From Gammaproteobacteria bacterium (GTDB lineage Bacteria; Pseudomonadota; Gammaproteobacteria; Pseudomonadales; Azotimanducaceae), in assembly GCA_027292925.1 (NCBI GenBank), contig JAPUGI010000236.1, positions 1-34,949 of the forward strand: a stretch of DNA of 34,949 bases. Direction: 5' to 3'. Both the position numbers and the translations under genes were made by a program. Under the pieces are notes generated by a model. That model had not been told where the DNA came from. It did no database searches and saw only the letters and a program-made list of their open reading frames with translations. Each line of letters opens with the position of its first letter. Positions within the stretch are counted from its first letter, which is position 1. Shown here piece by piece: positions 809 to 20,614 of the stretch.

Positions 809-1192
809 CTACTGTTTCTCTATAATTTCATCCCTGAGGCTATTAATAAATGCACACACATCTGCCTTTTCGGCCTCAGCAACCTCGAGTTTCTCGAGCG
901 TCCCGATACAATGTTCCATTAACAGGTCGTATTCACTATCAGTAATTCCAAGACCAACATGTGACGTCTGCATATTGCGGCCTGTATAGAAAGTAGGGCC
1001 GCCAGCCGCTTCGCACAGGAAATCCACGGTCAGTTGACGGTCCCGCCGCTTTGTATCGAGGCTGTCGGCAGCCCAATAATAGCCGATCTTTGGATCGTTC
1101 ATCAGGCGATCGCGGAATTCATCCGTGATCGCGGCAATAGCGTCATATCCTCCAAGACGTTCATACAAAGATGCTTCTGACGAATTGGACAT
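809..1192 (-). CDS. Group 1 truncated haemoglobin (paralogue 1)
   Basis: This is a 127-aa 2-on-2 globin of the trHbN group, which binds haem and small ligands (O2, NO) in the cytoplasm. It shows the N-terminal SLYERLGGYDAI signature, the glycine motif AGGP and the proximal haem-ligating His (F8) at about residue 78 in MQTSHVGLGIT. In an ungapped comparison with mycobacterial trHbN, the usual distal B10 Tyr is not conserved (Arg at the aligned position), so ligand chemistry may differ. The ORF track starts at 1210. The internal ATG at 1192 is preferred because AAGGAGG lies 5 nt before it and it makes the N-terminus exactly co-linear with the neighbouring paralogue. It is the last gene of a regulator-globin-globin cluster, separated from the second globin by 110 nt. 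Confidence 0.93.
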   Translation of the reverse strand: MSNSSEASLYERLGGYDAIAAITDEFRDRLMNDPKIGYYWAADSLDTKRRDRQLTVDFLCEAAGGPTFYTGRNMQTSHVGLGITDSEYDLLMEHCIGTLEKLEVAEAEKADVCAFINSLRDEIIEKQ

Positions 1193-1302
1193 AATCTCCT
1201 CCTTGCTCATGGATAGAATCTTCGCTAAGGCACGAAGACCTTCTTACTATAGAAGAGGAGTTTCAATTCAGGTATCCCAGAGTTCTGGGATTTTCTCTGG
1301 AT

Positions 1303-1686
1303 TTATCGGTTCTCGGCAATGACGTTCTCGATGCCTTCGACAATCGTCATGCAGTCATCCCGATCCTTCCCATGAATATCTAGGGAATCCAGGCAATCTT
1401 CGAAATGTTTGATAAAGATACCCCAGTCGCGTTCACTGATATCGAGGCCATCGTGAGCTTCCTTCATGTCACGCCCTCGATAGTAAACCGGACCACCAGA
1501 TATCTCACACAGATAATCAACAGTCAGTTGGCGCTCGGTTCGCAGACTGGTCCTCGAATGGCCTTTCCAATAGACACCTAGCTCCGGGTCGTTTTGTAAT
1601 CGCGACAACAGTTCATCAACAAATTCTGCGATGGCGTCGTATCCACCAAGGCGTTCATACAACGAGATTTCGGACGCAAGGACCAT
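1303..1686 (-). CDS. Group 1 truncated haemoglobin (paralogue 2)
   Basis: This is a second 127-aa trHb of group 1, the same length as its neighbour and co-linear with it (SLYERLGGYDAI, QLTVDYLCEISGGPVYY). The proximal F8 His is at about residue 78 in MKEAHDGLDIS. The aligned B10 position is Leu, so the distal pocket also lacks the usual Tyr and differs from that of paralogue 1. The ribosome-binding site AGGAAG lies 6 nt before the ATG and overlaps the TAG stop of the upstream LuxR gene, indicating a polycistronic message with translational coupling. The two globins have clearly diverged in sequence, so they probably do not do identical jobs. NO or O2 handling is the family expectation but is not shown here. 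Confidence 0.93.
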   Translation of the reverse strand: MVLASEISLYERLGGYDAIAEFVDELLSRLQNDPELGVYWKGHSRTSLRTERQLTVDYLCEISGGPVYYRGRDMKEAHDGLDISERDWGIFIKHFEDCLDSLDIHGKDRDDCMTIVEGIENVIAENR

Positions 1687-19687: not shown

Positions 19688-20614
19688 TTACTCGGTGGCA
19701 AACCCTTGTTCTATCCACGCATCAATGCCACCTATCATGGGGTAAACCTTGGGAATCCCGTATCGTTTGAGCTTAATTGCCACACGGGCACTGGATGCTT
19801 CATCGGGTCAGTTGCAATAAACGATAATATCGCTGTCCTTGGGGATGCGCGGCAGGTGGCGTTCGATTGCTTCCATGGGCACACGCACTGCGGTCGGTAC
19901 CATGTGTGGCTGAGCATCAAAGTCATATTTATGACGCAGATCAATCACGTGCACGTCTTTAGACGAATTCAGAAGCTCATTGACGGCCGAAGGTTCGAGC
20001 CGACGCATGCGCAGGGAACGTAAAAACAGGCGCCGCTGCGTGAATTTTCCGCCGATATACAGCACTAGCGCACCAAAAAGAATGTAGCCCGCCATGACAC
20101 CGAGTTCAGCAAATCTTCCAGCCATGTACTCCAATTGAGTATGGAACCAAAACCCTGTGCCAACGAATACCAAAGCCCAGATCAACGCACCGAGGGTATC
20201 CAGAAACAGAAACAAGCCGACATTCATGTTTGTCATTCCCGCCATGGGAGGCGCGAGGGTTTGCATACCCGGAACAAACTTGGCGATCAACAATGAAAAC
20301 CTGCCTACCCTGTCAAAGGTATGTTCGGTATTGCGAACACAATAGTCTGGTTCTAGTGAAATGCTGCACAATAGGTTGAGTACTTTGCCACCACGAGCCC
20401 GACCCAGCCAGTACCAGAAAAAGTCAATGGGCACAGCAGCGATAATGATGATCAAAATGATCAGGACTAAGGACAGCTCGCCGGTACCTGCGAGTGTCCC
20501 TGCGGCCAACAAGAGGGGTACAGCCGGGAGTGGTAAACCAGCCTGATCAAGCGCTACCCAGACGAAGATAACCAGATACCCGTATTCAATCAGAAATTGC
20601 ATTAATTCCGCCAT
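19688..20614 (-). CDS. DedA-family membrane protein fused to rhodanese; in-frame TGA, candidate selenoprotein
   Basis: The ORF track stops this gene at 19808, but the frame continues after the TGA (19808-19810) for 39 codons (PDEASSARVAIKLKRYG ... IGGIDAWIEQGFATE) to TAA at 19688-19690. That completes a rhodanese domain and gives 308 aa. Residues 1-200 form a DedA/VTT membrane domain with several hydrophobic helices and the GRFSLLIAKFVPGMQTLAPPMAGM re-entrant motif. A rhodanese domain (VHVIDLRHKYDFD ... IIVYCN-x-PDEASSA) follows in the cytoplasm. Relatives carry YCxCP, so the TGA (position 269) replaces the second Cys. A hairpin compatible with a SECIS element follows. Alternatives are a TGC-to-TGA nonsense mutation or a sequence error. 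The fusion is confident; selenocysteine is a hypothesis. Confidence 0.85.
19769..19810 (-). promoter_or_regulatory. Candidate bacterial SECIS element with its UGA codon
   Basis: Read on the minus strand, UGA is followed 18 nt later by UGCC-CGUGU-GGCA, a 4-bp upper stem with a 5-nt loop containing GU. A lower helix can form between GAAGC and GCUC with one bulge. The distance from UGA to the apical loop is 21 nt, and a G lies in the first two loop bases, matching the general description of bacterial SECIS elements. The short stem means chance occurrence is possible. Confidence 0.4.

Follow-up and report, generated by a model that had tools for sequence, protein, structure and literature searches.

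A covarying stem-loop behind an in-frame UGA points to selenocysteine in a family of DedA-rhodanese fusion proteins

We found that the UGA at codon 269 of a marine bacterium's gene encoding a DedA-type membrane domain fused to a rhodanese domain very probably encodes selenocysteine (Sec), two residues past the presumed catalytic cysteine (C-x-U). This reading rests on a TGA that is conserved among homologues, on a covarying stem that follows it, and on the presence in the same genome of a complete Sec machinery (tRNA-Sec, SelA, SelB and SelD) and of a second selenoprotein gene. The homologues also display synonymous constraint at the hairpin codons, and the stem is lost in relatives that have Cys instead of Sec. 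The original prediction had proposed that the hairpin is a SECIS element and lends support to a recoding of the rhodanese TGA, and our data support this proposal through the homologue stem and the contrast with Cys relatives, not through the single sequence. Within the window, by which we mean the whole stretch of 34,949 nucleotides that was analyzed, the gene occupies the minus strand, and its features are as follows.

19688–20614, minus strand: DedA/VTT membrane domain and rhodanese domain fusion gene, ATG at 20614, TAA at 19690–19688; frame uninterrupted past the TGA in 37 distinct homologues
20153–20530, minus strand: VTT/DedA domain, residues 29–154 (Pfam PF09335, VTT_dom, 1.8e-13)
19709–19987, minus strand: rhodanese domain, residues 210–302 (Pfam PF00581, 7.3e-12; the predicted fold matches solved rhodaneses)
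19814–19816, minus strand: Cys267 codon TGC, at the position of the canonical rhodanese catalytic Cys, invariant in the protein alignment
19808–19810, minus strand: in-frame TGA, codon 269, very probably Sec, motif C-N-U; TGA in 37 distinct homologues, TGC or TGT in 29 more distant ones
19778–19790, minus strand: putative upper SECIS stem-loop, UGCC 19790–19787, loop CGUGU 19786–19782, GGCA 19781–19778, assessed by pair types over 37 sequences, by folding and by contrast with Cys homologues
19775–19793, minus strand: full 7-pair stem in its family form (columns 30–36 with 42–48 of alignment A2), with a G.A mismatch at pair 5 and a C.U mismatch at pair 7 in the window
19775–19777, minus strand: Ile codon ATT, which breaks stem pair 5; Leu CTN in 36 of 37 homologues
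19769–19801, minus strand: proposed lower helix, GAAGC 19801–19797 with GCUC 19772–19769; 89% paired, covariation equal to shuffles

The mechanical ORF (20614..19808) terminates in ...IIVYCN*, since standard annotation stops at the TGA. Once UGA is read as Sec, the product has 308 residues: past the UGA, the reading is ...YCN-U-PDEASSARVAIKLKRYGIPKVYPMIGGIDAWIEQGFAT, then Glu, then the TAA. Codon 269 falls within the rhodanese domain. Cys267 aligns with the YC of solved rhodaneses, and in the predicted structure (mean pLDDT 85.6) Cys267 and Sec269 are placed in a loop between strand 262–266 and helix 270–284. The C-x-U motif is present on the rhodanese active-site loop as C267-N-U269.

By searching 147 relatives, 207 genomes of the source's bacterial family, the GTDB contig collection and 399 phylum genomes, all genomes being metagenome assemblies, we collected the homologues of this protein. 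A match was found in 36 of the 207 family genomes, with TGA at codon 269 in every full-length one. Pooling all searches gave 37 distinct sequences that carry TGA and a further 29 whose equivalent codon is TGC or TGT; the in-frame TGA is therefore both conserved and aligned to Cys in homologues, as looked for in a selenoprotein gene. The TGA homologues reach down to ~38% identity, and protein conservation persists beyond the TGA, where P270, E272, A276, R277, V278, A279, G295, G296 and W300 are invariant. Most of the named records are marine Gammaproteobacteria assembled from metagenomes (Pseudomonadales, OM182 and K189A clades). No conserved gene neighborhood was found around these genes, the biggest cluster being an antisense frame of the fusion gene itself. 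One homologue of the same genus (L014, on G001:C27) has a second in-frame TGA where the others have Trp, and a different N-terminus; this second TGA is probably due to decay or to an assembly error.

First, we considered the hairpin in the window sequence taken alone. The minus strand from 19810 down to 19769 reads UGACCCGAUGAAGCAUCCAGUGCCCGUGUGGCAAUUAAGCUC. The UGCC-CGUGU-GGCA hairpin is present where it had been described, from 19790 to 19778, and its loop does start 21 nt past the UGA, with the same 21 nt in all 37 homologues. The 4-bp upper stem had been called weak, and we agree, the window copy being unremarkable alone. Folding of the 42-nt segment gave a minimum free energy of -6.5 kcal/mol, compared to a mean of -6.56 for shuffled sequences (z 0.03), and in a 60-nt context including bases upstream of the UGA another fold was preferred over the hairpin. 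Set against the bSECIS limit of -7.5 kcal/mol, the window scored -6.5 (42 nt) or -7.9 (48 nt), and the 48-nt folds of the homologues ranged from -6.6 to -17.1 kcal/mol. Since single-sequence z-scores were mostly near 0 for the window and the homologues, single-sequence folding was not used as evidence. As for geometry, the published bSECIS description (stem of 4–16 bp, loop of 3–9 nt, G in loop position 1–2, spacing of 16–37 nt; PMC13188914) is satisfied by some hairpin at 59.5% of the 1,320 UGA trinucleotides in the window, with 2.4% of them having a stem of at least 4 bp in the very register of the window hairpin (spacing 21, loop 5); with 4 bp, the window copy stands at the lower end of the 4–16 bp range. 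An Rfam search, at the gathering threshold and at a permissive E-value, returned nothing relevant and no family matching the hairpin. Taking the hairpin of this single sequence as independent support for recoding was thus too strong, because both folding and geometry place it at chance level.

Second, we checked whether the stem is conserved in the TGA-containing homologues, which it is. The 37 sequences align without gaps, and the usual family stem has 6–7 bp: it is contiguous over 4–7 bp in 70% of the homologues, the others having 3 bp, one mismatch and further pairs. The three loop-proximal pairs are formed in 37/37 distinct Sec sequences, and pairing is less strict at pair 4 (70%, with a mismatch in 11/37) and pair 7 (68%). 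The loop-closing pair, which joins the third base of Ala276 to the third base of Val278, both synonymous sites, undergoes compensatory change: it is CG in 30 sequences, UA in 5, AU in 1 and GC in 1, is never unpaired (0/37) and shows no one-sided change, the UA version being present in two separate clades. On a protein-based tree from which the hairpin codons were left out, this pair changed 4 times, with both sides changing in 4/4 independent comparisons; covariation is mainly that of one pair and four events, and a sign test on the four independent pairs alone gives p 0.125. Within the gene, the same pair has the top mutual information of 6,009 third-position pairs no more than 20 codons apart, and is unique among them in reaching its combined pairing and covariation. 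Taken over the entire stem, both the covariation and the number of paired cells were higher than in 500/500 shuffles and in all slid registers. A systematic helix scan around the TGA scored this stem best, and RNAalifold independently recovered 5/7 of its pairs in the same register.

The lower helix GAAGC/GCUC that had been suggested beneath the hairpin was not supported: it forms only 3 bp in the fold of the segment and, although 89% paired, its covariation equals that of shuffles, with no two-sided pair change. The actual extension of the stem consists of the three pairs directly beneath the 4 bp (A-G-N with C-U-N), one of which is broken in the window only. We also rejected the correlations that column 51 shows with columns 4 and 12, since they track the split of two clades and correspond to no helix. 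The window is the sole copy of the 37 with Ile at codon 281, which replaces the G-C of pair 5 by G.A, so that 4 pairs remain contiguous, and by stem energy its element is among the weaker ones of the family. The window element may be less efficient, or the changed base may be an assembly error.

Third, we scored codon constraint in the 37 Sec sequences against the gene's own codon usage. Over the stretch up to +20, five of the six strongest synonymous constraints lie at codons +5 to +9 past Sec, with Arg as CGU in 32/37 (z 5.4), Val as GUG in 30 (z 4.4), Ala as GCC in 30 (z 3.8), the first Ser as UCG in 25 (z 3.4) and the second Ser always as AGY (z 2.7). Each of the gene's top-scoring seven-codon blocks for constraint overlaps the hairpin. 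The codon before the TGA (19811–19813) is equally constrained (z 5.4; Ser always AGY, Thr mostly ACG, Asn always AAC); UGA context may account for this, or a role in the base of the SECIS, for which no helix was found.

We also observed that Ser275, Arg277 and Leu281, whose codons form the stem and loop, are invariant or nearly so in Sec forms but not in Cys forms. The RNA element may thus constrain the protein at these residues.

To check for an equally good hairpin in TGC-containing relatives, we used 29 Cys forms sharing the motif Y-C-x-C-P-x-E, 3 of 32 Cys loci having been dropped for a differing motif. There was none: the three loop-proximal pairs occur together in 6/29 Cys forms, against 37/37 Sec forms, and the loop-closing pair is formed in 34% of Cys forms compared to the 46% expected from column make-up. 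Out of 7 stem pairs, Cys forms have 3.7 on average and Sec forms 6.35, and a G in loop position 1–2 is found in 14/29 Cys forms compared to 37/37 Sec forms. Since most Sec forms are closer to the window than the Cys forms are, kinship adds to the contrast in invariant pairs, not to the covariation.

These data bear on a first alternative, namely that the stem is conserved by protein or codon-usage constraint (ASSARVAL written in favored codons) and that Sec is inserted via another element. Such constraint would fit the four of seven pairs that touch first or second codon positions and vary little, as well as the relatedness of the sequences to each other. However, we consider it highly unlikely: the decisive pair consists of two third positions, of Ala and Val, with four Watson-Crick types and UA in two clades; Arg is CGU in 32/37 at the hairpin whereas Arg codons are mixed at +15 and +20; and the Cys relatives have neither these codons nor the stem.

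We then asked whether the host has the machinery expected for a SECIS-dependent selenoprotein. The genome to which the window belongs (3.54 Mb in 401 contigs, 89% complete) carries a tRNA-Sec with anticodon UCA (Rfam 68.4 bits, ARAGORN agreeing) and SelA (6e-161). An overlapping 641-residue frame downstream of SelA reads as SelB, and the C-terminal part of a 737-residue frame near tRNA-Sec reads as SelD, both named from sequence reading, so that all four components were found. The selA and selB frames overlap on contig C121, and on contig C10 tRNA-Sec lies close to the 737-residue frame, which is apparently an NADH-dehydrogenase-like domain fused to SelD; these features fall in L040 4234–7547 and L041 242–5275. 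The genome has in addition a second selenoprotein gene, SelW-like (G000:C191:4001-4207), with TGA in a CxxU motif (IHYCSQ-U-DYKPEA) and a hairpin in the 48-nt fold after its TGA (-13.0 kcal/mol). Co-occurrence of the fusion gene with SelA was rejected as evidence: SelA is present in 177/207 genomes of the bacterial family (86%), so its presence does not single out the carriers of the gene, and it is also found in 3/7 Cys carriers tested.

A second alternative is UGA readthrough without Sec, the TGA being either reassigned to Trp, Gly or Cys or read by a near-cognate tRNA, with the stem as stimulator. A stem-loop located 3' of a stop can indeed stimulate readthrough, and the second TGA of L014 at a Trp codon would suit such decoding. 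Still, this is even less probable than the former alternative. TGA is the normal stop of 6 of the 27 window genes, which indicates that there is no general reassignment of the code; relatives have Cys at the aligned position, the usual exchange partner of Sec; the genome encodes tRNA-Sec(UCA), SelA, SelB, SelD and a canonical CxxU SelW-like protein; and the bSECIS rule of a G at loop position 1 or 2 holds in every Sec form but in only about half of the Cys forms (14/29). A third alternative takes the TGA for a genuine stop or a nonsense mutation that leaves a truncated DedA protein or a pseudogene, with a hairpin formed by chance. It agrees with the standard annotation that closes the ORF there, with the chance-level hairpin of the window alone and with the normal use of TGA as a stop in 6/27 genes, but is the most improbable of all, given that 37 distinct sequences share the TGA and keep the 38 codons behind it conserved, that synonymous sites covary, and that distant relatives have Cys at this codon.

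Selenocysteine insertion directed by the stem-loop is thus the reading that we retain. In this mechanism, the hairpin would be the apical part of a bacterial SECIS, 21 nt past the UGA of codon 269 in the DedA-rhodanese mRNA, to which SelB carrying Sec-tRNA(Sec) would bind via the small G/U loop before delivering selenocysteine to the UGA at the ribosomal A site. Reasoning from the computed results on the TGA, the stem and the machinery, we hold with high confidence that SelB binds the stem-loop with its Sec-tRNA and that Sec enters at codon 269. Translation would then run for 39 more codons and complete the rhodanese domain. The predicted product would carry Cys-Asn-Sec in the rhodanese active-site loop, with Cys267 at the catalytic position and, two residues later, Sec269, where more distant relatives have Cys. 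Since both residues lie in the rhodanese loop and Cys267 aligns with the catalytic Cys, the chemistry is likely sulfur/selenium transfer or thiol redox via the C-x-U pair; the protein may act as a membrane-tethered transferase or as a thiol-redox enzyme working through a selenenyl-sulfide. More tentatively, and with somewhat less than even confidence, we propose an as yet undescribed membrane selenoprotein family of marine Gammaproteobacteria that combines a DedA-like domain without the usual lipid-phosphate arginines with a C-x-Sec rhodanese and performs selenium-dependent sulfur transfer or redox at the membrane, its SECIS having shaped the protein, as the near-invariance of Ser275, Arg277 and Leu281 in Sec but not Cys forms would suggest.

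Compared to described bSECIS elements (PMC13188914), the element shares its location in the coding region directly after the UGA, the 21-nt spacing, a loop of 5 nt whose second base is G and whose third is U or G, and a contiguous stem of 4–7 bp in most homologues; what sets it apart is the marginal energy and stem length of the window copy. Among rhodaneses, the CxU type is already known as a predicted selenoprotein form (NF041203; PMC13188914, PMC9312934), NF041203 rhodanese_LYCAU being the CxU ‘rhodanese-like domain-containing protein form 3’ (PMC13188914). This model is the best NCBIfam match of the rhodanese part and likewise has C-x-U in a rhodanese, but it covers 126 residues of rhodanese only, whereas the fusion protein adds an N-terminal DedA membrane domain and scores 71.3 bits, below the curated cut-off of 115. 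None of the 207 bacterial-family genomes has an NF041203 match above that cut-off, and no standalone NF041203 gene above it was found in the 207 family and 321 class genomes.

Fusions of DedA and rhodanese with Cys have been described before (COG0586-rhodanese, e.g. P. aeruginosa PA1209), and how they relate to undecaprenyl phosphate has been called unclear (PMC10127716, PMC12893004). Cys-type fusions on plasmids are annotated as ‘DedA family protein/thiosulfate sulfurtransferase GlpE’. They share the domain order of the Sec family and are homologous to it over the full length, with Y-C-x-C-P-x-E in place of Y-C-x-U-P-x-E, but have Cys, not Sec, and no covarying stem. NCBIfam 2026, a 2026 review, the deep-Sep paper and the literature searched yielded no description of a DedA fusion containing Sec, which is not proof of novelty; the literature search likewise gave no papers that bring together DedA, selenocysteine and rhodanese, and none about DedA selenoproteins among the papers listed. 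As standard annotation ends the gene at the TGA, the selenoprotein would be missed or recorded as a truncated DedA in dozens of genomes. With compensatory synonymous changes, strong codon constraint at the loop and loss of the stem along with the switch to Cys, the family provides a clear comparative case of a coding-embedded bacterial SECIS.

The DedA domain differs from the canonical form as well. Of the features of COG0586 DedA undecaprenyl-phosphate flippases, the VTT/DedA domain is present (PF09335, 1.8e-13) and the two-arginine site is absent: R-F-x-P-x-x-R in eight DedA proteins from other genomes is K-F-V-P-G-x-Q in the Sec family (20255–20284 in the window, residues 112–118). The positions of the Arg pair are K112 and Q118 in the window protein, each of these two residues occurring in 34 Sec rows; in Cys fusions the K is kept and the second position is variable. 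The Arg pair would be the essential arginine pair of YghB, in the second re-entrant helix (inferred from PMC10127716), and the lipid-phosphate function of the DedA domain may be changed in the Sec family. The link between DedA and rhodanese becomes testable through this family, since reliance on selenium suggests a demanding redox or sulfur-transfer reaction taking place at the membrane.

Elsewhere in the window (809–1686, minus strand), we noticed two neighboring, similar genes that resemble truncated hemoglobins, with SLYERLGGYDAIA in both.
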